DNA of 10,253 nt, taken from an uncultured Clostridia bacterium (GTDB lineage Bacteria; Bacillota; Clostridia; Peptostreptococcales; Anaerovoracaceae). This document shows, piece after piece, positions 1-10,253 of this stretch. A program made the position numbers and the translations under genes. The stretch lies in assembly GCA_934255435.1 (NCBI GenBank), contig CAKQNZ010000064.1:1-10253 (forward strand). Reading direction: 5' to 3'. The first letter of the stretch is position 1; the number at the start of each line of letters is the position of its first letter. The notes under the pieces were generated by a model. It was given only the letters and a program-made list of their open reading frames with translations, was not told where the DNA came from and made no database searches.

Positions 1-551
1 GGTCTACAGAGAACCAGCAGCACCGATTCATATCCAGCGGACTCGATATCCCTGTAGGTATGAAAAATCCTACCGGAGGAAGTTTCGAAGTCATGCTCAA
101 TTCCATCGCAGCTACTCAGAAGCAGCATGTGTTCATGTACAGAGGATACGAGGTGGAGTCGGAGGGCAATCCTTTTTCCCACGGTATACTCAGAGGTGCA
201 GTGGATATCACAGGGGCTACAGTACCCAATTACCATTATGAAGATCTTTACAGACTTTATGAGATGTATTTGCAGAAGGATCTGACGAACATGGCCGTGG
301 TGGTGGATGTGAACCATTCCAACTCCGGTAAACGGTGGTATGAACAGGAGCGTATCTGCAGAGATGTGCTGGGCAGCTGCAGATACTCAGTTGACTTGCG
401 TAAACTGGTGAAAGGTTTCATGGTTGAAAGCTATATAGAAGATGGAAGCCAGCCTGTGGATGGCGGTATCTATGGAAAATCAATAACAGATCCGTGTATG
501 GGGTGGGAGAAAACAGAGAGATTCCTGTATGAGATAGCTGAACTGGTGTGA
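1..551 (+). CDS. 3-deoxy-7-phosphoheptulonate (DAHP) synthase, class I, C-terminal part (5' truncated)
   Basis: Condenses phosphoenolpyruvate with erythrose 4-phosphate, the first step of the shikimate pathway, in the cytoplasm. The frame is open from base 3, so the N-terminal half lies outside the window. The visible part matches the end of the AroF/AroG/AroH family. The start reads STENQQHR then GLDIPVGMKNPTGG, like the [21 protein letters not shown] region of E. coli AroG. The metal ligands of the family are present: His in VNHSNSGK (codon 315-317), Glu in FMVESYI (codon 426-428) and Asp in SITDPCMGW (codon 489-491). The protein ends where the family usually ends, with no chorismate mutase fusion at this end. 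Feedback type (Phe, Tyr or Trp) cannot be judged. It stops 41 bases before the next gene on the same strand, so it may be the precursor-supply gene of the operon or simply an upstream neighbour. Confidence 0.95.
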   Translation, partial: STENQQHRFISSGLDIPVGMKNPTGGSFEVMLNSIAATQKQHVFMYRGYEVESEGNPFSHGILRGAVDITGATVPNYHYEDLYRLYEMYLQKDLTNMAVVVDVNHSNSGKRWYEQERICRDVLGSCRYSVDLRKLVKGFMVESYIEDGSQPVDGGIYGKSITDPCMGWEKTERFLYEIAELV

Positions 552-592: not shown

Positions 593-1603
593 TTGAAGAA
601 AACTAAAGTGATAGGTGCAGGTAAATATATACCTGATAAAGTCGTGACAAGTGCGGAGCTTGAGGAGCAGATGGGATTCGAACGCCTGGGTGTCAGGAAA
701 GGAACGATAAAGCTGCTGAACGGTGTTAATGAAAGACACTTCGCATCGGATGAAGAAAACACATCTGATCTTGCTGCGAAAGCAGGTATGCAGGCAATAG
801 AAATGGCAGGAATCGATCCGGAGGATATAGACCTGCTGATATTCGCATCCATATCCCAGGATTTTATCGAACCGGCTACTGCCAATGCTGTCCAGTACAA
901 ACTGGGAGCCACGAATGCCAAGTGCTTTGATGTGAAGAATGCATGCAATGCATTCATAACTTCCCTTGAAATAGCAAATGCGTATATTGCTTCGGGAAAC
1001 GTAGAGACAGTGCTGATCACATCAGGTGAGATAATGCACAATTATATAAAATGGGATTACAACGACAAAGAGGAGATCTGCGAGACCAACGCTACGCTGG
1101 GATTCGGCGACGGCGGCGGTGCCATACTGCTGCAGGCGTCAGACGATGAAAATGTCGGTATGAGCACGAGATTCCAGACCAACGGCAATTACTGGGATAT
1201 AGGAGTAATCTGGGGCGGCGGCTCGATGTACATGGCAGATCCGGACAAGTTTACGATGAAGAATGTGGATCCGGACATGGTACAGAAGAATACCATGCGT
1301 GCAGCCAAGTTCTACTTCGATTCCATGAAAAAGAACGGCATAGATATAGACGACGTGGATCTTTACATAACCACACAGATGGGCAAATACAAGATACACC
1401 AGCTGGCCGATACACTTAAGATACCTCACGAAAAGATAGTCGTGCAGTGCGACAGATTCGGCAATACTGCAGCAGCGTCCATGCCGATAGCTCTCACAAG
1501 AGCCCTGGAAAGCGGAGAGCTGTCTCTCGGTTCCGGTCAGAGAGTAGTGATGTTCGGTGCTGCCAACGGCCTTACATTCGGATATGCGTCATTCGTGCTG
1601 TAA
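593..1603 (+). CDS. 3-oxoacyl-ACP synthase III-like (KAS III/FabH-like) protein with catalytic His replaced by Thr
   Basis: Thiolase-fold enzyme of the KAS III family, 336 residues, close to the usual 310-340. The start is TTG at 593, preceded by AAGGAG at 579-584 with 8-base spacing. No later start keeps the essential first strand (MKKTKVIGAG, compare MYTKIIGTG in FabH). The nucleophile is Cys118 in KNACNAF and the conserved Asn is Asn291 in DRFGNTAAAS. The HQAN motif that carries the catalytic His of FabH reads TQMG here (residues 261-264), so His becomes Thr261. The glycine-rich end (GAANGLTFGYASF) fits the family. Normal KAS III enzymes use Cys-His-Asn for decarboxylative condensation of an acyl-CoA with malonyl-ACP. 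Without His, acyl transfer or a divergent condensation is more likely (inference). It is followed 22 bases later by an acyl ligase, so its acyl donor may be the carrier protein at 3456-3686. Confidence 0.9.
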   Translation: MKKTKVIGAGKYIPDKVVTSAELEEQMGFERLGVRKGTIKLLNGVNERHFASDEENTSDLAAKAGMQAIEMAGIDPEDIDLLIFASISQDFIEPATANAVQYKLGATNAKCFDVKNACNAFITSLEIANAYIASGNVETVLITSGEIMHNYIKWDYNDKEEICETNATLGFGDGGGAILLQASDDENVGMSTRFQTNGNYWDIGVIWGGGSMYMADPDKFTMKNVDPDMVQKNTMRAAKFYFDSMKKNGIDIDDVDLYITTQMGKYKIHQLADTLKIPHEKIVVQCDRFGNTAAASMPIALTRALESGELSLGSGQRVVMFGAANGLTFGYASFVL

Positions 1604-1625
1604 TAAAGACAAGTGAGGTGCATCA

Positions 1626-3443
1626 ATGAAAATTTATACAGAAAATGATGTCATGAGCGTTGCTGCCGGAATTTTTCCGGCAGCTTCCGTACCTTTTACA
1701 AGAAATCTTACCAAAGAACTCGGATATGAGGTGGAAGCAGTAGATGCTCTGATAAGTAAAATAAACGAAACCTATGGTCTTCATATAGAAAGACCGGCTG
1801 ATGATGAACTGACACTCAACGATATCATCGAGCTGATGAATCATGAAATAGGTGTGGATGATGTCATTATCAGAGATTTCATTACGGAGATATGCGAGAC
1901 TGAGCCCGACAAGGATGCGATAATCTTCGACGGTGAGCATTACACATACAGACAGATCATGGATACTGTAAACAGCCTGTCGGCAGGTCTCATGAAACTG
2001 GGGGCAGGAAAGTCGAAGCGAGTGGCGCTGATAATGTCCAACAGGATAGAATACATACTGCTGTATTTCGCACTGTTCTTTATCGGAGCATATCCTGTAC
2101 CTGTGAACACAAGATGGGGAAAGCAGGAGATCTTCAATGTCATCGGCGATTCAGATTCGGATATCATAATCACTGAGGAGAAGATAGGCAGCCATCCTTA
2201 CGGAGAATACGTCGGCGAGTTCATCACTTTCCATCCGGAATTGAAACATGTGGTGTATTTCGGAGACAATCACTTCGGAGATAAAGGTATCACTTATGAA
2301 GATATGCTTGCCAGCGGTGAAGGCGTTAATCCTGAGTTTGAAGATATAAAGCCGGACGATGTAGCAATGCTCTCCTATACGTCAGGAACAACAGGTATGC
2401 CGAAGGGCGTAATGCTGAAGCAGAATGATATAGTGAAGATATCATGCTACACCACACAGATGTGGCGTACTGAAGAAGAGGAATATCCGTTCTCAATAGC
2501 ACCGCTTTACTCGGCGCAGGGTTTCCTGAGCCTGTTCATAGATTTTGCAATAGGCAAGACTTTCAAGATGTCATCGTCTTTCAATCCCAACGATATATTG
2601 AAAGAAATCTCCAAGTGCGAGAACACTGTGGTGCATACGCAGCCGACGATGTGGTCACTGCTTCTTAACTGCAGGATAATCAACTTCACAAGATTCGATT
2701 CACTGAAAAAGCTGGTAGTATCGGGTTCACTCTGCAGCCCGCAGCTGGCGAAACAGATAGAAGAAAAACTTGGCTGCACACTGCTGAACGCATATGGCCT
2801 CATCGAAGGTACCAGCGTAGTGACAATGACACGTATGAACGACTCCTACGATGTCAGGATGAATACTGTAGGACGTGTGATACCCGGTATAAAGATAAAG
2901 ATCGTCGATGAGGAACACAATGAAGTACCTCACGGTGAAGTAGGCGAGCTGGTGATAAAAGGTTACAACATGGCAGGCTACTACAACAACGACGAGAAGA
3001 CGAAGGAAGTGCTTTCCGAGGACGGATGGCTCTATACCGGAGATCTGGCAAGATACTATGATGATGAGAACATCTGCATAGTAGGAAGATGCAAGGACAT
3101 GATCATCAGAGGCGGCTTCAATGTATATCCCAGCGATATCGAGGAATACATCCTGCAGATAGACGGCGTCCAGAACGCTGCCGTGGTAGGCAGAGAAAAC
3201 GAGATACTGGGCGAGGAGATAGTGGCGTTCGTCCTTCCGAAAGCAGGCAGGAGCCTGGTGAAGAACGATATCATAAGACCGCTGTTCAACCAGCTGGCAA
3301 ACTACAAGATGCCGGACAAGGTGTTCTTCGTGTCGGAACTTCCGACGATACTTGCCGGCAAGATAGACAAGAAACAGCTTCACAAGTGGGCCAAGGACGG
3401 TATACCTCAGGACAAGCAGATACTGTTCGGCTCGGCAGAATAA
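1626..3443 (+). CDS. AMP-dependent acyl ligase (ANL superfamily) with N-terminal carrier-like domain lacking the serine
   Basis: Activates a carboxylic acid with ATP to an acyl-adenylate and passes it to a thiol (CoA or a carrier protein); 605 residues, cytosolic. The start ATG follows GAGGTG at 1615-1620. Residues about 25-72 align without gaps over the core with acyl carrier protein helices II-III: ELGYEVEAV corresponds to DLGADSLDT, then KINETYGLHI to ALEEEFGIEI. The attachment serine is Val36, so this domain cannot carry phosphopantetheine. The ligase part spans about residues 80-590. The P-loop is SYTSGTTGMPKG (250-261). The A5 motif is YGLIE (390-394), with Ile for the usual Thr. YTGD lies at 470-473 and GRCKDMIIRGG at 487-497. 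The A10 Lys is K579 in AGKIDKK. A real carrier protein starts 12 bases downstream and is its likely partner. The substrate (fatty or aryl acid) cannot be told from sequence alone. Confidence 0.92.
   Translation: MKIYTENDVMSVAAGIFPAASVPFTRNLTKELGYEVEAVDALISKINETYGLHIERPADDELTLNDIIELMNHEIGVDDVIIRDFITEICETEPDKDAIIFDGEHYTYRQIMDTVNSLSAGLMKLGAGKSKRVALIMSNRIEYILLYFALFFIGAYPVPVNTRWGKQEIFNVIGDSDSDIIITEEKIGSHPYGEYVGEFITFHPELKHVVYFGDNHFGDKGITYEDMLASGEGVNPEFEDIKPDDVAMLSYTSGTTGMPKGVMLKQNDIVKISCYTTQMWRTEEEEYPFSIAPLYSAQGFLSLFIDFAIGKTFKMSSSFNPNDILKEISKCENTVVHTQPTMWSLLLNCRIINFTRFDSLKKLVVSGSLCSPQLAKQIEEKLGCTLLNAYGLIEGTSVVTMTRMNDSYDVRMNTVGRVIPGIKIKIVDEEHNEVPHGEVGELVIKGYNMAGYYNNDEKTKEVLSEDGWLYTGDLARYYDDENICIVGRCKDMIIRGGFNVYPSDIEEYILQIDGVQNAAVVGRENEILGEEIVAFVLPKAGRSLVKNDIIRPLFNQLANYKMPDKVFFVSELPTILAGKIDKKQLHKWAKDGIPQDKQILFGSAE
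1662..1684 (+). repeat. Perfect 10-bp inverted repeat with 3-base loop inside the ligase coding region
   Basis: GCTGCCGGAA (1662-1671), TTT, then its exact reverse complement TTCCGGCAGC (1675-1684). It begins 36 bases after the A of the ligase start codon and encodes the near-symmetric peptide AAGIFPAA. In RNA it would form a GC-rich hairpin. No T-run follows, so it is not a standard terminator. It could affect translation of the ligase relative to the upstream gene, or be a chance result of the coding sequence. Confidence 0.6.
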
Positions 3444-3455
3444 GGAGACAGATAT

Positions 3456-3686
3456 ATGGCATATGATGATTTTCTGAAATTCCTCTCAGACAGGTTCGGC
3501 GTGGATACGAAGGAACTTGAGGAAACTGATAATTTCGGAGAGCTTGGTGTGGATTCACTGTCGCTCTTCAACATGATCACTGATATCGAAGAGGAATTCA
3601 AGATAAGTATAGACATAGACGATATGACGGAAGTGGATTCAGTGAGCAAGATGTATAAATACATAACTGAAAAGGTGGCAGGATGA
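3456..3686 (+). CDS. Acyl carrier protein (first of two)
   Basis: Small acidic four-helix carrier of 76 residues, the normal length. The phosphopantetheine serine is Ser34 in LGVDSLSL (codon 3555-3557). After attachment of the arm by a holo-ACP synthase, encoded elsewhere, it would hold an acyl group as a thioester. Helix III and the loop read DIEEEFKISI, typical of the family. The start ATG follows AAGGAG at 3442-3447 with 8-base spacing. The gene lies 12 bases after a ligase and overlaps the next gene by 4 bases (ATGA), so all three are probably made together. The likely role is to receive the acyl group from the 1626-3443 ligase and present it to the KAS III-like protein. Whether it also serves housekeeping fatty acid synthesis cannot be seen, but its setting argues for a dedicated role. 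Confidence 0.95.
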   Translation: MAYDDFLKFLSDRFGVDTKELEETDNFGELGVDSLSLFNMITDIEEEFKISIDIDDMTEVDSVSKMYKYITEKVAG

Positions 3687-4714
3687 TAAAGATACCGGAG
3701 TTAGTACTGGAAGGAAAATACGACATAGACGAGGCATATGTACTGAATGAACTCAGAAACTATGATTTCCGCAGCAAAGACGTACATGAGGACAAGTGTT
3801 TCGAAGTGTGCAGGGTCGGAGGATACAGATATATATCTGCAGAGGACGGCTCCTGCAGGATGATAGGCTGGCAGTGCAATTTTGCATCCATACAGAACTA
3901 CGATATATGCCTGCCGACGATAATCGTCATAGATGTGGATAGTGACAACCGCATCAGCAGCATACATCTCAATGAGAATTTCAAAGGTAGCCAGGGAATA
4001 CCATGCAGCTTCAGATATCTTGAAAGGAGGCTCCAGGCGTATGAGGGAGCCGAGTTTTCACAGAAAAACGACGTCATGAGCGACGATCTGGGAACAGGAT
4101 GCAGACATACCTTCGAAGTGATGTACGGAGCATGCACTTTCCGTGAGTGGTGTATAAAAAACGGAGAAACAGACGCATGGATGTCAGAAGCCACTGCTTC
4201 GTATCATACGGACGATGGTATCGTGGCTCTGGACAGGAATTCCATCAACGGCACGGAGACTGTGACAGAGATATATATATCGGATTTCAAGGAGCATATA
4301 AAGTATGATCATAACGGAGCCCTTTGCGGATGCCGTGATATGAAAATAGAAGGATTCGCACTTGAAGACGGAAGCAGGACAGCCATAGCAGACGCAAAGT
4401 ATATAACATCTGACAGCAAGGCGGATTTCGATCTGAAGATCCTTAAGATACTTTCGAAACCCTGGATGCAGTCAGGCAAGAGGATCGGTATAAAGAACAA
4501 ATTCTATTTCTCGCATCTGTGGCCTACCACACTGTTCGGGATACTGGTGCAGATGTTCGCCATAGTGGTCTACAGCGACAGTTATTCATATTTCCAGCAC
4601 TGTATCAGAGGACTTCAAAAAGATGAGGACCACTGTGCCTGCATAGGTGTATGTGAAGACATAGACGAGTGTATGAAATATTTTCCGGATTTTGAGATAG
4701 ACGATTTATTTTAG
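3683..4714 (+). CDS. Cys-rich protein of unknown function with a possible DUF2889-like region
   Basis: 343 residues; I do not recognise it with certainty. It holds 16 Cys, several in pairs or clusters (KCFEVC, LCGC, and four in HCACIGVCEDIDEC at residues 317-330), but no clear zinc or Fe-S spacing. Residues about 77-155 resemble DUF2889: a segment of alternating hydrophobic residues (TIIVIDVDSDNRISSIHL), then IPCSFRYLERRL, then a GCRH element (139-142) followed by FEVMYGACTF, compared from memory with the family's GCTHL followed by a TTAF segment. The second half is not recognised. It contains one hydrophobic run, residues 283-297, without flanking features that would make it a convincing membrane helix. 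There is no signal peptide. The start codon overlaps the carrier protein stop (ATGA), pointing to translational coupling and to a role acting on the acyl-carrier intermediate. It sits just before the exporter genes. The DUF2889 link is a tentative recognition by eye. Confidence 0.8.
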   Translation: MIKIPELVLEGKYDIDEAYVLNELRNYDFRSKDVHEDKCFEVCRVGGYRYISAEDGSCRMIGWQCNFASIQNYDICLPTIIVIDVDSDNRISSIHLNENFKGSQGIPCSFRYLERRLQAYEGAEFSQKNDVMSDDLGTGCRHTFEVMYGACTFREWCIKNGETDAWMSEATASYHTDDGIVALDRNSINGTETVTEIYISDFKEHIKYDHNGALCGCRDMKIEGFALEDGSRTAIADAKYITSDSKADFDLKILKILSKPWMQSGKRIGIKNKFYFSHLWPTTLFGILVQMFAIVVYSDSYSYFQHCIRGLQKDEDHCACIGVCEDIDECMKYFPDFEIDDLF

Positions 4715-4732
4715 ACAGTGAAAGGATGAATG

Positions 4733-5434
4733 ATGAGTATAATCGAATTCAAACATGTTTCAAGAGAATTCAGGAGCGGAAGCGACGTTGTCAGAGCTCT
4801 CGATGATGCCAGCTTCGAGATCGAAAAAGGCAGATTCACAGTGATACTGGGACCCAGCGGTTCCGGCAAGTCCACGACGCTGAATCTTCTGGGAGGTATG
4901 GACAAGGCCACTTCGGGAGAGATCTGGATAGACGGCAGAGATATATCGAAGATGTCGCTGGCCCAGCTCACAAGATACAGGAGAGAAGATGTAGGCTTCG
5001 TTTTCCAGTTCTACAATCTTATACCTAATCTCACTGCTTTTGAAAATGTGGATATGGCAAAGAAAATAAGCAAGGGGCAGATGAATACGGCAGAAGCTCT
5101 GAAGGCGGTAGGTCTTGAGCACAGGATGAAAAGCTTCCCGTCGCAGCTTTCCGGAGGCGAGCTGCAGAGAGTTTCCATAGCGAGAGCCATATGCAAGAAT
5201 CCGAAGCTGCTGCTGTGCGATGAGCCTACAGGAGCGCTGGACAGTGATACGGGAAGAAAGGTGTTCACACTGCTGCAGCAGATGTCAAGGACGTATGACA
5301 GCGCAGTAGTCGTTGTAACGCATAATGCAGCGGTGGCACCTGCAGCGGATCGTGTCATCAGGCTGAAAGATGGACGTATACACAGTGTGACAGACAACAG
5401 TGCACCGGTAAGTATGGAAGAGGTGGAGCTGTAA
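4733..5434 (+). CDS. ABC transporter ATP-binding protein, MacB/LolD type
   Basis: Cytoplasmic ATPase of 233 residues that powers the permease encoded next to it. All ABC motifs are intact (numbering from the upstream ATG at 4730): Walker A GPSGSGKST 41-49, Q-loop VFQFYN with Gln93, signature LSGGELQRV 140-148, Walker B LLLCDEPTG with Glu165, and H-loop THN with His198. The DEPTGALD string and DVGFVFQFYNLIPNLTAFENV are typical of the LolD/MacB/FtsE branch rather than of importers. There are two adjacent ATG codons, 4730 and 4733. AAAGGA at 4721-4726 lies 6 bases before the second but only 3 before the first, so 4733 is chosen. The stop codon overlaps the permease start by one base. Such ATPases usually work as homodimers with FtsX-like permeases in export, lipoprotein extraction or peptide resistance. 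Confidence 0.95.
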   Translation: MSIIEFKHVSREFRSGSDVVRALDDASFEIEKGRFTVILGPSGSGKSTTLNLLGGMDKATSGEIWIDGRDISKMSLAQLTRYRREDVGFVFQFYNLIPNLTAFENVDMAKKISKGQMNTAEALKAVGLEHRMKSFPSQLSGGELQRVSIARAICKNPKLLLCDEPTGALDSDTGRKVFTLLQQMSRTYDSAVVVVTHNAAVAPAADRVIRLKDGRIHSVTDNSAPVSMEEVEL

Positions 5435-7767
5435 TGAAATATCTGTTTGTGAAACTACGCAGGGACATATCCAGGATGTGGGTGCAGTTTTTCGCAGTTT
5501 TCATGATGTCGGTCCTGGCGATAACCATATACTCCGGTATGGAGGGAGTATGGTACGGACTGAGATGTGAGACCAACGACTACTATACCCAGACAAAACT
5601 TGCAGACGCCTGGGTGAACGGCAGCATGATAACTGACGATATGGTGAAGGACGTCAGGGCCCTGGACGATGTGAAAAAGGTCACGAGATCCATGACTGCT
5701 ACAGTGCAGCTGGATACCGATAAAAACGACAAGCCGGACGTGAAGCTGATGAGCATGGACTCCACAGCACTTTTCGATCCGGTGATACGCGACGGTGAGA
5801 CTTTCGACAAGGATTCTTCTGACGGCATATGGTTAGATGAAACTATCTGCAAAGAGCGGGGTCTCGAGGTAGGGGACAAGATAACCCTTAAATACGGTCA
5901 GGCAAAGAAGACGTTCAGGATAAAAGGAACTATCCTTGATTCTGAATTCATCTACTACACAGGTTCGGTCACAGATACCGTGCCTAACCACAAGATACAC
6001 GGATATGGTCTGACAGGCAGCAAGGCAGCAGAAAGCTTTTACGGCATGTATGTATGCAACGAGCTGAGGCTCGATGTCAGCAAAGGCTGTGACTACACGA
6101 AACTGCAGGCAGATGTGGAGGATATACTGGGAGACAGTTATCTGAACTTTTCCGAGAGAGACGATATTTCTTCGGTAAGCCAGATCACAAAGGAAATCAA
6201 CCAGATGCAGAACATGGCCAATCTGTTCTCGGCAGTATTCATAATACTGGCAGTTTTGAGCATGTATTCCACGATGACAAGGCTCATCAGCACCCAGACT
6301 ACACAGATCGGCACAATGAAAGCCATCGGATTTTCCAACGCCGCTATCAGACTGCATTACATTTGCTATGGATTCTTCGTATCACTGGCAGGCAGCTGCG
6401 TCGGTATATTTTTCGGAAAGGCACTGGTATCCAGGGCCGTCATGAAAGTCAAAAAGGCTACGCTGACGCTGCCTGAGTGGCAGGTAAGCCTGTCCTTCAG
6501 GATATATCTGATAATCGGTGGCATCGTTCTGGTTTGTGTACTGGCCACTATACTGGCAGCGCAGAAAGGTCTGAACAAGATGCCGGCAGAGTCCATGAGG
6601 AACACTGCCAATGTGAAATCAGGCAGGAGACATTTCGACCCTGACAGGTTCAGGATCTGGAGGAATCTTGACTACAGGACGAAGTGGATGACAAGAGATA
6701 ACATGCAGAACATCATCAGATGGGTGATGAGTATCATCGGTGTTGCCGGAAGCATGGTGCTGATGATGGCAGGTCTCGGATTCAGGGACTCCATAAATTT
6801 CTCCAACGATTACGTCTACAACACGCAATACTCATACGAATACAAGGTGGTTCTGAACAATGGGTATGATCCGGCGCAGCTGGACGATCTGGAATCAGAG
6901 ATAAAGTCGGACTATCAGACGGTATATGAGTACAATCTCGATATGTATTACCCTGATTCCGACAATAAAGAACGTCGCACGATCTCAGTAATCGATAAGG
7001 GCGATTATGTGAACCTTGACAGAAAAGACGGGAAAGCACTGAAACTGACGGATTCCACAGTAGCTGTAAGCAGCAAGATCGCAGGCGTTCTGGGGATATC
7101 GGAAGGCGACGAACTGAAAGTGAGAGTCCTGGGCGACGATAAATATCACAAGCTGAAGATCACAGATGTCGTCATGGCGCCGTCTCCTCAGGGGATATTC
7201 GTTTCCAGCGGATACTGGGAAGATGAGATGGACAGGGAGTACACCCCGAGTGCAGTGCTCCTGGAAAGTAAAGCAGATTACGATGCTGTCAGAGACATGG
7301 ACATCGTCAAGGAGACATCAACTATAGGCGATCAGCTGGCAAGCATGAAGATCATGACAAAGAGCGTCATGACGATAATCTATCTGATGATAGTAGCATC
7401 AGTACTTCTGGGCTGTATCATAATATACAATCTGGGCATGCTCAATTATATCGAGCGGTTCAGAGACTATGCGACTATGAAGGTACTGGGATTCTATCAG
7501 CGTGAAGTCCGCAGCATAATAATACGTGACTGCATGATCACGACTGTGCTTGGATGGCTGATAGGTATACCGGCAGGTTATAAATTCCTGTCGTTCTATA
7601 TAGGTATAGTACAGTTCAAGACCTTTGAATGGGTACCTGCGTTATCTGTGCCGAGCTTCATCGTAGCGTCGGTGGTGGTGTTCGCATGCTCCATCATCGT
7701 AAACATGGCGGTGGCACATAAAGTGACGAAGATATCCATGATCGAGGCCCTGAAATCAGTTGAGTAA
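5434..7767 (+). CDS. FtsX-like ABC transporter permease, two-module (about 8 transmembrane helices)
   Basis: Membrane partner of the preceding ATPase, 777 residues. The hydrophobic pattern shows two repeats of one helix, a large soluble domain and three helices. Module 1 has a helix at about 15-36, a soluble domain at about 45-255, and helices near 262-282, 306-330 and 356-377. Module 2 has a helix near 428-450, a soluble domain at about 455-635, and helices near 643-668, 699-724 and 740-760. The MKAIGFSNAAIR segment (295-306) and MKVLGFYQREVR (682-693) are the matching FtsX coupling motifs of the two modules, so one chain probably replaces the permease dimer found in MacB or LolCE. The two large domains should face outward. 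Start: ATG at 5434 overlaps the ATPase stop (TAATG), with AGGTGG at 5421-5426. The likely cargo is the product of this operon or a toxic amphiphile, which is inference. Confidence 0.93.
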   Translation: MKYLFVKLRRDISRMWVQFFAVFMMSVLAITIYSGMEGVWYGLRCETNDYYTQTKLADAWVNGSMITDDMVKDVRALDDVKKVTRSMTATVQLDTDKNDKPDVKLMSMDSTALFDPVIRDGETFDKDSSDGIWLDETICKERGLEVGDKITLKYGQAKKTFRIKGTILDSEFIYYTGSVTDTVPNHKIHGYGLTGSKAAESFYGMYVCNELRLDVSKGCDYTKLQADVEDILGDSYLNFSERDDISSVSQITKEINQMQNMANLFSAVFIILAVLSMYSTMTRLISTQTTQIGTMKAIGFSNAAIRLHYICYGFFVSLAGSCVGIFFGKALVSRAVMKVKKATLTLPEWQVSLSFRIYLIIGGIVLVCVLATILAAQKGLNKMPAESMRNTANVKSGRRHFDPDRFRIWRNLDYRTKWMTRDNMQNIIRWVMSIIGVAGSMVLMMAGLGFRDSINFSNDYVYNTQYSYEYKVVLNNGYDPAQLDDLESEIKSDYQTVYEYNLDMYYPDSDNKERRTISVIDKGDYVNLDRKDGKALKLTDSTVAVSSKIAGVLGISEGDELKVRVLGDDKYHKLKITDVVMAPSPQGIFVSSGYWEDEMDREYTPSAVLLESKADYDAVRDMDIVKETSTIGDQLASMKIMTKSVMTIIYLMIVASVLLGCIIIYNLGMLNYIERFRDYATMKVLGFYQREVRSIIIRDCMITTVLGWLIGIPAGYKFLSFYIGIVQFKTFEWVPALSVPSFIVASVVVFACSIIVNMAVAHKVTKISMIEALKSVE

Positions 7768-7768
7768 C

Positions 7769-7773
7769 AGGAG
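7769..7773 (+). promoter_or_regulatory. Ribosome binding site deciding the second ligase start
   Basis: AGGAG lies 7 bases before ATG at 7781. An in-frame TTG at 7760, inside the permease gene, would extend the ligase by seven residues but would place this site inside the coding region. ATG 7781 is therefore the better start. Confidence 0.75.
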
Positions 7774-7780
7774 TCAATCT

Positions 7781-9436
7781 ATGAGAAAAACAAGCAGGAT
7801 CATCGAAAGACATATGGATCAGATCAGCACGCTGCAGGATCTGGTACGCCTCACTGGCAGCGTATACGGAGACGACATACCGGTGGTGTGGGACATGACG
7901 TCAGGTACAGAATATAGCATTACATACAGGCAGCTCTGCGGCGATGTGTCGGCAGTAGCTGATTACCTGACAGGAAAAGGCATATGCAGAAGGCGTATAG
8001 CGGTAATGGGGGCACTGGATCATCACTGGCTGACAGCATTCCTCGGCATCATAAGCAGCGGGAATATCGCTGTCCCCCTTGACAGGAACGATAATACCCT
8101 TGAGGAAAAGATAGGGCTGGCGGATCTCTATGGTATATATATGGACGAAACTGTTAAGGATCATGAAAACTTTGCGTCATCACATGGAATAGGTTTCGTG
8201 CTGGATACTGAAGAATGCTGCAGGGCAGCTGAGGCAGCAGGAAATGGCAGTAACGGTCAGTTTATATATGAGTCCGATCCGGATGATGATGCCATGATCG
8301 TTTTCACATCAGGCACTACAGGTATAGGCAAAGGTGTGGTACTGACGAACAGGAACATCATAGCAAATACCAAGTGCGGCGTGTTTTTCCTGGATGATGG
8401 TATACAGGAAGGTGGAAGGACGATACCTGTACTGCCGCCCACACATATGCTGCAGGTGACAGTGGGGCTGCTTACTCCGCTTTACTACGGCGTAACGCTG
8501 TGCTTCGGAGGCGGTATAAAATATATATCGAAGAATATGAAAACATTCAGTCCCGAAGTCATGGTACTGGTACCGATGGTCGTGGAGAATCTCTATGAAA
8601 AGATAGACCTTAAAATCAGGAAAAAACTTTCGGAGCGGAAGCTCAAAGCCATCATAAGATTCAGCGAGACCATGAGGAAACTGGGGATAGATCTGCGATA
8701 CAAACTGTTCAGAGAAGTCCATGACGCTTTCGGAGGCAGACTCAGGACCATCGTATGCGGAGGTTCAAGTCTTGATGCAGATGTCATCAGAGGTCTGGAC
8801 ATATACGGCATACAGGTCCTGGAAGGATACGGCATAACCGAGTGCTCTCCGGTGATATCCTGCAACAGGAAAGCCAGCCGACTCATAGGATCTGTAGGTG
8901 TCAAGGCACCTGATGAATTCTGTCAGATTAAGATCATAGACGGAGAACTCTGCGTCAGGGGCGATATAGTGTTCAGAGAATATTTCCGCAATGAAAAGGA
9001 AACTCAGGCTGCAAAGCCTGACGGATGGTTCCATACAGGAGATATCTGCGCAATGGATGAAGAAGGGTACATACACATCACAGGACGAAAGAAGAACCTG
9101 ATAATCCTTTCCGACGGCAACAATGTTTCGCCGGAGGAGATAGAAGGCTATTTCTGCAGTCATCCGTATATCAAGTCCATGTTCATAAGCGAGCATTCAT
9201 CCCGAAGGAACTGCCTGGTGGCATCGGTACATCCGAATTTCGAGATACTGGAAGAAGCAGAGAAGATGGATATACATCTTAAGATAAACGAGCATATCAA
9301 GGAGATAAACCGCAGGCTGCCGGCTTTCAAGCGGATCGGCAAGGTAGTGTTCTACGATGAGGATTTCGAGAAGACTGCTCTGGGAAAGATAAGGCGATTC
9401 AAATATATACAGGAGAACAATGCAAATGCTGGATAA
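7781..9436 (+). CDS. Long-chain-acyl-CoA ligase-like (FadD-type) AMP-dependent synthetase
   Basis: Second adenylate-forming enzyme of the operon, 551 residues from the ATG chosen by its ribosome binding site. It activates a carboxylic acid as acyl-AMP and then transfers it to CoA or to a carrier protein. Motifs: P-loop FTSGTTGIGKG 175-185, with Gly for the usual Pro; A5 EGYGITEC 348-355, fully standard; FHTGD 417-421; GRKKNLIILSDGNNVSPEEIE 435-455; A10 Lys536 in TALGKIRR. The LSDGNNVSPEEIE form and the PPTHMLQ segment (219-225) resemble the FadD15/FAA branch of fatty acyl ligases and differ from the 1626-3443 ligase, so this is not a recent copy of it. It has no extra N-terminal carrier-like domain. 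Its last bases overlap the start of a carrier protein gene, which makes that protein the likely acceptor rather than free CoA (inference from context). Confidence 0.92.
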   Translation: MRKTSRIIERHMDQISTLQDLVRLTGSVYGDDIPVVWDMTSGTEYSITYRQLCGDVSAVADYLTGKGICRRRIAVMGALDHHWLTAFLGIISSGNIAVPLDRNDNTLEEKIGLADLYGIYMDETVKDHENFASSHGIGFVLDTEECCRAAEAAGNGSNGQFIYESDPDDDAMIVFTSGTTGIGKGVVLTNRNIIANTKCGVFFLDDGIQEGGRTIPVLPPTHMLQVTVGLLTPLYYGVTLCFGGGIKYISKNMKTFSPEVMVLVPMVVENLYEKIDLKIRKKLSERKLKAIIRFSETMRKLGIDLRYKLFREVHDAFGGRLRTIVCGGSSLDADVIRGLDIYGIQVLEGYGITECSPVISCNRKASRLIGSVGVKAPDEFCQIKIIDGELCVRGDIVFREYFRNEKETQAAKPDGWFHTGDICAMDEEGYIHITGRKKNLIILSDGNNVSPEEIEGYFCSHPYIKSMFISEHSSRRNCLVASVHPNFEILEEAEKMDIHLKINEHIKEINRRLPAFKRIGKVVFYDEDFEKTALGKIRRFKYIQENNANAG

Positions 9437-9659
9437 GATAAGAGAATATTTACATGAGAATTACGATATAGACAAGGACGCTGTCAGTGAGGAAAGTGAA
9501 CTGGGCAATGACCTGGATCTCACATCATTTCAGCTTGTGGAGATATGTGCAGAGCTTGAAGACGAGTTCGATGTGGAGATCAGCGAAGAGGATCTTCCGG
9601 GTATAATAACCATCGGTGATCTGATGAACGTGATAACCAGAAACGGAGGAAAGGCATGA
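9420..9659 (+). CDS. Acyl carrier protein (second of two), TSF-type serine motif
   Basis: 79 residues, small and acidic. The attachment site is Ser36 in DLDLTSFQLVEI (codon 9525-9527). Phe follows the serine and Thr precedes it, unlike the DSL of the carrier at 3456-3686, so the two carriers are probably read by different partners. The segment ELEDEFDVEI corresponds to helix III of carrier proteins. There are two possible starts. ATG 9420 lies 4 bases after AGGAG (9411-9415), while ATG 9426 lies 10 bases after it; either gives the whole domain. The gene overlaps the ligase end by 17 or 11 bases and its own stop overlaps the U32 gene start (ATGA). This suggests a ligase, carrier and U32 protein made in step. 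A D-alanyl-carrier role is less likely because the ligase is of fatty-acyl type. Confidence 0.92.
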   Translation: MQMLDKIREYLHENYDIDKDAVSEESELGNDLDLTSFQLVEICAELEDEFDVEISEEDLPGIITIGDLMNVITRNGGKA

Positions 9660-10253
9660 TACACATACTGGCGCCGGTAAGAAATTATGAAACGGCGAAA
9701 ATGCAGATAGATGCAGGCGCAGACGAGATATATCTGGGCGTTGACGGAGGAGATTTCAACGTGTATTCCTACGGTGGCAGATTCAAAAGCATGAATAATG
9801 TAGTGACGCAGGTAGCTGATGTAGACGAACTGGCGAAGATAAGCCGTTACTGCCGCAAGAAGGGCAGGCTCCTGCAGCTTACGATGAACATGCATTATAT
9901 ACCGAGAGAATTCGAAGAAGGATATATGGAGCATCTGAAAAACTGCGCACCATACATCGATCAGGTCATAATTTCCAATATAGGGCTGATAAGCAAAGTC
10001 CGCAAGGCAGGGATAGATATCCCGGTAGCTGCGGGTTCATTCACATTCATACCAAACAGTGAGATGATAAAATACCTGCAGAGCCTCGGCGTTGTCAGGG
10101 TCGTGCTGCCTCACGCATCAAGAGTCAGTGAGATCGCCAGGATACATGACGCTGTGCCGGATATGGAGCTTGAGATATTCGCACTTATCGGAGGCGGCAA
10201 CAACTGCGGCAGATGCATGATGTTCCACAGCCCGCTGAAATGTGATATAGGGC
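9656..10253 (+). CDS. U32 family protein (YhbU/RlhA/TrhP/UbiU-like), 3' truncated
   Basis: N-terminal 199 residues of a U32 (once called collagenase-like peptidase) protein; the rest lies beyond the right edge. The start ATG overlaps the carrier stop and follows GGAGG at 9645-9649. The opening (MIHILAPVRNYETAKMQIDAGADEIYLGV) is the typical first strand and helix of the family's TIM-like barrel. Near the end of the visible part, Cys184, Cys187 and Cys196 (in NNCGRCMM and LKCDIG) lie where U32 proteins carry Fe-S ligand cysteines; a fourth would be expected past the edge. Characterised relatives UbiU/UbiV, RlhA and TrhP hydroxylate ubiquinone precursors, rRNA or tRNA without oxygen, while others were reported as proteases. 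Context with a carrier protein and ligase suggests action on a carrier-bound acyl group, which is inference. It might instead be a housekeeping RNA-modifying paralogue. Confidence 0.85.
   Translation, partial: MIHILAPVRNYETAKMQIDAGADEIYLGVDGGDFNVYSYGGRFKSMNNVVTQVADVDELAKISRYCRKKGRLLQLTMNMHYIPREFEEGYMEHLKNCAPYIDQVIISNIGLISKVRKAGIDIPVAAGSFTFIPNSEMIKYLQSLGVVRVVLPHASRVSEIARIHDAVPDMELEIFALIGGGNNCGRCMMFHSPLKCDIG

Follow-up and report, generated by a model that had tools for sequence, protein, structure and literature searches.

What could be built by a compact run of nine bacterial genes in which two ligases, each with its own free carrier protein, stand beside a condensing enzyme and an ATP-binding cassette (ABC) transporter? 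This question is raised by a stretch of 10,253 nucleotides (the window, meaning here the whole stretch that was analysed) from an uncultured Clostridia bacterium of the Anaerovoracaceae, contig CAKQNZ010000064.1, in which the run reaches from position 593 to the end. Six of its genes, from an enzyme resembling ketoacyl synthase III (KAS III) to an FtsX-type permease, form a conserved and apparently rare cluster. With a probability of roughly 0.5, we propose that the locus encodes a thiotemplated pathway in which an OleA-like condensation without decarboxylation joins two carrier-loaded acids, an unclassified protein of 343 residues processes them and the ABC ATPase/permease pair exports the product. 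Gene content, order, conservation and catalytic residues were observed; the chemistry, including the substrates, the product and the activity, is proposed on their basis. If the proposal is true, the locus represents a route free of polyketide synthases (PKS) and nonribosomal peptide synthetases (NRPS) for the assembly and export of acyl products in anaerobic bacteria of the gut type.

Gene content and order

All ten genes of the window lie on the plus strand, namely the nine of the run and, upstream of them, a gene for 3-deoxy-7-phosphoheptulonate (DAHP) synthase. The order from 593 is KAS III-like enzyme, ligase 1, carrier 1, 343-residue protein, ABC ATPase, FtsX-type permease, ligase 2, carrier 2 and a U32-family gene, and the spacings from the DAHP synthase onward are 41, 22, 12, -4, 15, -1, -8, -17 and -4 bases. 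Pfam and the spacing list thus bear out the initial annotation of this DNA, which had described these genes as lying on one strand with gaps of 22 bases or less, or overlaps, from 593. Its remark that no ketoreductase, dehydratase, thioesterase or NRPS module is visible also holds; none of these, and no malonyl transferase or condensation domain, was matched by Pfam in the ten window proteins. Promoter-like sites (18 against 17.9 in shuffles) and terminator-like sites (6 against 5.9) are as frequent in the window as in shuffled sequence and give no grounds for placing an operon boundary. The window holds no Rfam match at gathering scores and no tRNA.

Conservation of the core cluster in relatives

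Relatives of the cluster were located by two peptide patterns taken from the alignment of the 343-residue protein, which gave five loci in the genome collection, and sampling of the family of genome G001 added the locus L026. With the window, the core loci are then seven (window, L001, L002, L003, L004, L005 and L026). The order KAS, ligase, carrier, 343-residue protein, ATPase, FtsX recurs in L001, L002, L004 and L026, with a single insertion in each of them. In L001 and L002 a free carrier separates KAS and ligase 1, and in L004 and L026 one gene lies between the 343-residue protein and the ATPase; several genes are inserted at the latter place in L003. Carrier 1 lies directly 5′ of the gene of the 343-residue protein in all seven core loci, and a KAS bearing the active-site Glu described below lies upstream together with ligase 1 in six of the seven, the exception being L003. 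An ABC ATPase is found downstream in all seven (as a fragment in L005), with FtsX next to it in six, cut by the contig end in L002. Ligase 2 and carrier 2 follow FtsX in three core loci (window, L004 and L026), and L001 has the carrier alone at that place.

This order is kept by proteins that have diverged considerably. Identity to the window in L001, L002, L004, L005 and L026 is 42-47% for the KAS, 53-57% for ligase 1, 32-46% for the 343-residue protein and 55-63% for the ATPase, and the FtsX permease is 38-41% identical in L001, L002, L004 and L026. The values for L003 fall to 28% (KAS) and 20-30% (FtsX). The view of the initial annotation, that this is a conserved and apparently undescribed operon for biosynthesis and export, is strengthened by the kept core order, and no description of this gene set was found in the open-access PubMed Central (PMC) literature by searches that were partly aimed elsewhere. 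Co-occurrence of the genes, which the annotation had wanted to be checked, was found for the six-gene core in relatives, but not for the DAHP synthase and U32 genes, neither of which is present in any of nine related loci.

The relatives also carry genes of their own. An amino-acid:[carrier protein] ligase-like gene is present in L002, L004 and L026, a second, degenerate KAS-like protein with its Cys kept in L004 and L026, and a gene with a formyltransferase domain in L004. Another contig of G001, the genome of L001, holds at L030:1-6481 an amino-acid:carrier ligase-like gene, a PP-loop (WbuX-like) gene, a ligase, a second Glu-bearing KAS without His and a carrier-like protein, and at its very end that contig breaks off within a KAS gene, of which the first part is present. 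Since L001 begins inside a KAS, L030 probably supplies the upstream half that the L001 cluster lacks, the two contigs carrying the two ends of one cluster.

L005 is a decayed core with only fragments of the 343-residue protein and of the ATPase and without FtsX; in this second cluster copy of genome G003, at L005:9893-10715 (= L029:9109-9931), the two genes are reduced to frames of 96 and 115 residues. A recombinase piece with zinc-ribbon and DUF4368 domains was seen at L003:8035-8769, shortly 5′ of the acetyltransferase-carrier-343-residue protein-carrier-KAS set of G003, and hints at mobility of that version.

The cluster appears to be rare. A KAS close to the homologue P0054 (E <= 1e-40) was found in 2 of 257 sampled genomes, G001 (a seed) and G099, both of which hold the 343-residue protein. 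Wider sampling matched this protein in 5 of 346, 1 of 347, 1 of 347 and 2 of 391 genomes, in samples that overlap and count seeds and with G326 and G344 as distant matches. These frequencies are a lower bound, as the profile search gave more than the single-sequence search, and one homologue (P0146) fits neither peptide pattern, and its species was missed in the contig scan. No homologue of the protein at E <= 1e-5 was found in 72,556 plasmid or 50,697 phage records, and none was confirmed in viral contigs.

Condensing enzyme and proposed pathway

The KAS III-like enzyme (593..1603, TTG start) is matched by PF08541 (9e-24), PF08545 (2e-16) and also PF00108. A longer start as in the homologue P0023 was dropped because of an in-frame stop at 563-565. 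Residues 78-135 were aligned to the 6b2r chain, with residue 2 of the query on chain position 103, no gap up to residue 16 on 117 and one inserted residue before the Cys. By this alignment Glu93 (869..871) corresponds to position 117 and Cys118, the nucleophile (944..946), to position 143, and Glu93-Pro94 stand at chain positions 117-118. We take this chain, whose file is named 3-oxoacyl-[ACP] synthase III, to be OleA of Xanthomonas, which fits the OleA numbering used in PMC7064751. The KAS profile matched the chain 3row, presumably also OleA, at 7e-50. The Asn of the catalytic triad is present as Asn291, and in the homologue alignment Thr261 (1373..1375) occupies the place of the catalytic His.

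According to a passage of PMC7064751, the Glu of OleA comes from the other subunit, acts as the base, is unique among characterised thiolases and is essential for condensation, and Glu117 is followed by Pro in all but two of the OleA proteins aligned there. A passage of PMC4578411 reports that the E105A variant of PpyS yields no photopyrone. Together, Glu93 and Cys118 would be a signature of non-decarboxylative, head-to-head condensation.

The distribution of these residues was followed in homologues of the KAS, 146 of which were found and 120 listed; 117 of the listed ones have all four columns of the Glu, Cys, His and Asn sites. Among these, 90 have Glu and 27 another residue, and His is present in 37 of the 90 with Glu against 25 of the 27 without. 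The 18 closest listed homologues (P0023-P0040) all show Glu, Cys, Thr and Asn. In an unrooted FastTree tree of 127 KAS sequences, a single split with a local support of 1.0 has all 99 tips with Glu on one side and all 28 tips without it on the other. A clade of 41 tips unites the window with L001, L002, L004, L005 and L026 (support 1.0), the window itself lies in a clade of 22 tips without His (0.999), and an intermediate node of 89 tips has a support of 0.166. One listed sequence (P0075, 458 residues) shows the first part of a Glu-bearing KAS joined to a formyltransferase domain, by fusion or by a deletion between neighbouring genes.

In the small pathway of specialised metabolism that we propose, ligase 1 and ligase 2 would activate one acid apiece and transfer it to the phosphopantetheine of the free carrier paired with them, as the gene pairs suggest. 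The KAS III-like enzyme would take one acyl group on Cys118, Glu93, reaching in from the partner subunit as in OleA, would deprotonate the alpha-carbon of an acyl thioester, and the two chains would be joined head to head without decarboxylation, to judge from the residue pattern shared with OleA, LstAB and PpyS. Because its gene comes directly after that of carrier 1 in all core loci observed, the 343-residue protein may be expected to act on the acyl group bound to carrier 1 or on its product. The ABC ATPase/FtsX pair would then move the product out of the membrane or the cell. In the window only, the DAHP synthase and the U32 protein may, more speculatively, supply chorismate or prephenate and a hydroxylation independent of O2. 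For the idea of the initial annotation, that two different acids are loaded before being joined, Glu93 as a base of the OleA/PpyS type offers a possible mechanism. Its view of the product as a lipid gained no support, and neither did a loading of both acids by the two ligases in every version, as the second carrier of L001 has no adjacent ligase 2 and L002, L004 and L026 have the amino-acid:carrier ligase-like gene.

Several observations weigh against this proposal. The His found as His285 in OleA, His271 in LstA and His281 in PpyS is absent from the window enzyme, and its mutation abolished the activity of LstAB according to a passage of PMC12141560, so the KAS may only transfer acyl groups. 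The Glu-bearing KAS group is large and mostly without known function. L003 has a carrier-343-residue protein-carrier arrangement with the KAS downstream and without Glu, and ligase 1 is absent from it. Ligase 2 is absent from L001, L003 and L005, and the contig of L002 stops earlier. An OleD-like reductase, OleB and other later ole or lst enzymes were not found among the ten proteins of the window, which ends at 10253. Finally, the proposal presumes both the specificities of the ligases and the direction of transport by an ABC pair of the FtsX type.

The main rival, which we consider unlikely, is that acyl groups are transferred and no C-C bond is formed. Here the KAS would act as an acyltransferase only and pass the acyl group from one carrier to another carrier, an amine or a hydroxyl, so that an ester, an amide or an acylated amino acid results. 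CerJ, ChlB3 and DpsC are presumably examples of such acyltransferases. The change of His to Thr in the window's clade of 22 His-less tips, in which Cys and Asn are retained, speaks for this function, and the amino-acid:carrier ligase-like genes of the relatives offer an amine as acceptor; a passage of PMC4578411 names acylating ketosynthases for the biosynthesis of cervimycin, xenocyloin and nonactin. On the other hand, Glu93-Pro94 is found in all 18 closest listed homologues and the Glu in five of six related core loci; a pure acyltransferase would have no evident use for a carbon-acid base of the OleA type. The His is moreover kept in the KAS of L004, L005 and L026. If head-to-head condensation is the true function, an activity known so far from olefins, lipstatin and pyrones would be extended, and the enzyme would show whether the His is dispensable.

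Ligases, carriers and transporter

Ligase 1 (1626..3443; PF00501 3e-74, PF13193 3e-14) and ligase 2 (7760..9436; PF00501 6e-46, PF23562 5e-7) are AMP-forming enzymes, ligase 1 of the acyl/aryl type, and are unlike each other. For the comparison with an OleC-type beta-lactone synthetase, both ligases are AMP-binding proteins, and the NCBIfam matches covered were the best 25 of 111 and the best 25 of 100. Each is followed by its own free carrier, in which the attachment Ser is kept: Ser34 in carrier 1 (3456..3686; PF00550 2e-13) and Ser36, within a TSF motif, in carrier 2 (9420..9659; PF00550 2e-8). The N-terminal part of ligase 1, about 75 residues encoded at 1626-1860, aligns with carriers and has lost the Ser, so that two unlike ligases with free carriers and a serine-less carrier-like domain, as initially annotated, were recovered by Pfam and by alignment. 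This N-terminus seems to be a decayed or structural carrier domain. Decay is suggested because the same domain keeps its Ser in L004 and L026, and L001 and L002 have a separate carrier protein at this point, after the KAS and before ligase 1.

The ABC ATPase (4730..5434) is of the LolD/MacB/FtsE type, with matches to PF00005 (4e-37) and, below its cut-off, TIGR02211 (1e-65). The FtsX-type permease (5434..7767, 777 residues) shows two FtsX stretches (PF02687, 3e-25). The pair thus has the ATPase and the two permease stretches of a transporter of the MacB/LolCDE type, and the equivalog cut-offs of MacB and LolD were not reached (205 of 966 and 221 of 308 bits).

As the ligase-carrier pairs adjoin a transporter of the LolD/FtsX type, a modification of the envelope or of membrane lipids similar to DltA/DltC was considered in place of a secreted metabolite. 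A ligase and its carrier would load acyl or aminoacyl groups, which the ABC pair and partners would place on the envelope or remove from it. We hold this to be improbable. For D-alanylation, two ligases together with a condensing enzyme would be more than is required, no acyltransferase of the MBOAT/DltB type was matched in the window, and the patchy occurrence is unlike that of an envelope housekeeping function.

Unclassified 343-residue protein

The product of 3683..4714 has 343 residues and no match in Pfam (E <= 0.1) or NCBIfam, and it was studied through its homologues and an AlphaFold2 model. The initial annotation had called it DUF2889-like, which was not supported. DUF2889 (PF11136) was rejected because the window protein has no Pfam match at E <= 0.1 and the related proteins of L027 and L028 have none at 0.5. 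In ten genomes, seven of them with relatives of the protein (two distant), nothing exceeded the PF11136 cut-off, and the single match, in G344, had an E of 0.27. The passage on DUF2889 in PMC4520260 states no function.

A single-sequence search, of limited sensitivity, gave 22 homologues at E <= 1e-3 among about 5.8 billion proteins. A profile search brought in P0143 and P0146 as well as a distant sister family with a length of about 310 residues. Of the 199 matches to profile A4, 120 were listed, and the majority of these belong to the sister family, which includes L027 and L028 and has some members named Oscillospiraceae. Over 14 aligned members of both families a GSQG motif, Cys108, Cys140, His142, Glu145, Glu169, Gln312 and Cys320 (window numbering) are invariant; the three Cys and the His could bind a metal. 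Two AlphaFold2 models (mean predicted confidence, pLDDT, of 90 and 89) show a set of strands followed by helices, twice. They gave weak matches to folds like the major histocompatibility complex (MHC), or scattered ones, and no clear fold match in the Protein Data Bank; no function was drawn from them. The protein thus belongs to an unclassified family tied to carrier proteins, and its role is open to testing because the homologue P0146, 39% identical to the window protein, comes from the named and cultured Anaerocolumna xylanovorans.

At L027:7487-11796 and L028:3778-9383 a ligase-2-like gene, a carrier and the 310-residue sister protein lie beside one or two HGD-D (2-hydroxyacyl-CoA dehydratase-like) genes, an arrangement that is possibly a carrier-based module of its own.

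These HGD-D neighbours, together with the ligases and the thiolase-superfamily enzyme of the window, would also suit a catabolic operon in which aromatic or fatty acids are activated and split in the thiolase direction, the ABC pair being an uptake or stress system. This appears very improbable to us, as the genes include free carriers and do not point to CoA alone, the window proteins gave no match to a dehydrogenase, a hydratase or a CoA-transferase, and the occurrence is patchy.

Comparison with known systems

Among the closest known systems are OleA and the ole/beta-lactone pathways. A KAS III/thiolase scaffold, Glu-Pro at OleA Glu117, Cys and Asn are shared, and two acyl thioesters are the likely substrates in both. 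The window differs by the Thr of its clade in place of His, by acids that are probably held on dedicated carriers and not on CoA, by the lack of OleB and OleD, and by the addition of two ligase-carrier pairs, the 343-residue protein and the ABC pair. The window KAS was rejected as a true OleA, as the His is absent and the score of 166.5 bits with the equivalog PRK09258, a model which we take to cover OleA, stays below the cut-off of 285 bits.

Lipstatin carries a formyl-amino-acid side chain, and LstE is the NRPS of its pathway. In resemblance to the lst genes, L004 and L026 have an OleA-type KAS, the degenerate second KAS and the amino-acid:carrier ligase-like gene, and L004 has the formyltransferase-domain gene; lipstatin synthase LstAB is a pair of KAS III-like subunits in the description given in a passage of PMC12141560. 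Unlike in lipstatin formation, the amino acid of the relatives is probably activated by a carrier ligase resembling an aminoacyl-tRNA synthetase and not by an NRPS, and no reductase was seen. The window itself was rejected as a lipstatin-type cluster, because the second KAS and the formyltransferase were found in relatives only and neither in the window as far as it reaches.

PpyS, pseudopyronine synthase, CorB and MxnB are head-to-head pyrone ketosynthases, and the last two link chains that are bound to carriers. The window KAS matches CorB (4yuc, 5e-22) and the 4v2p ketosynthase, presumably MxnB (1.5e-21), weakly, and PKS genes are absent from the window. PpyS is alike in its Glu base and in joining two acyl chains, as described in part of PMC4578411. 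Proteins of the PRK07080 type in L002, L004, L026 and L030 resemble the amino acid:[carrier protein] ligases of the Bll0957 type, with 4h2w matching the L026 protein at 3e-26, but they reach 138-147 bits against an NCBIfam cut-off of 357, and none was seen in the window.

A wider claim can be framed from these comparisons, to which we give a small chance. The locus would stand for a new biosynthetic class of anaerobic gut-type Firmicutes in which free ligases, amino-acid:carrier ligases and small carriers feed an OleA-like joining enzyme without His, one acid perhaps being an amino acid in some relatives. The founding enzyme of an unclassified fold would then modify the product on its carrier, and in the version of the window a U32 oxidase, supplied with prephenate via a dedicated DAHP synthase, would hydroxylate it independently of O2.

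Ends of the window

The DAHP synthase is the 3′ part of a class I enzyme (3..551, cut by the window start) with matches to PF00793 (3e-17) and NF009395 (1e-47). The latter spans profile positions 168-346 of 355 and stays below its cut-off, as is to be expected of a cut gene. The enzyme is the first of the route to shikimate, chorismate and prephenate, and it perhaps stands outside the system, since the nine related loci lack it. The same absence, which also holds for the U32 gene, would allow the ends to be unrelated neighbours, but a chance run of genes has next to no probability as an account of the whole and is refuted for the core at 593-7767 by the overlapping reading frames and by the six-gene order kept with diverged proteins.

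The shikimate-entry enzyme and the U32 protein at opposite ends suggest a link through prephenate-fed hydroxylation. According to a passage of PMC11574389, U32 oxidases hydroxylate without O2 and take the oxygen from prephenate in anaerobic ubiquinone synthesis, and probably also in RNA. The DAHP synthase could be explained just as simply by an aryl acid as substrate, and the two end genes may be no more than neighbours.

The U32 gene itself (9656..10253, 5′ part, truncated where the window ends) shows a 4-base overlap with carrier 2 and a PF01136 match (2e-14) of 53.6 bits against a cut-off of 22.4. It shares the U32 domain with UbiU/V, TrhP and RlhA, and the shikimate route leads to prephenate, but the window protein is divergent and cut. 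With an identity of only 22-29% to 12 U32-matching stretches in five related genomes, it is regarded as a divergent paralogue and is a candidate for a U32 protein in an operon of specialised metabolism near a shikimate-entry gene. With regard to Fe-S ligands, its 199 readable residues hold Cys at positions 66, 97, 184, 187 and 196.

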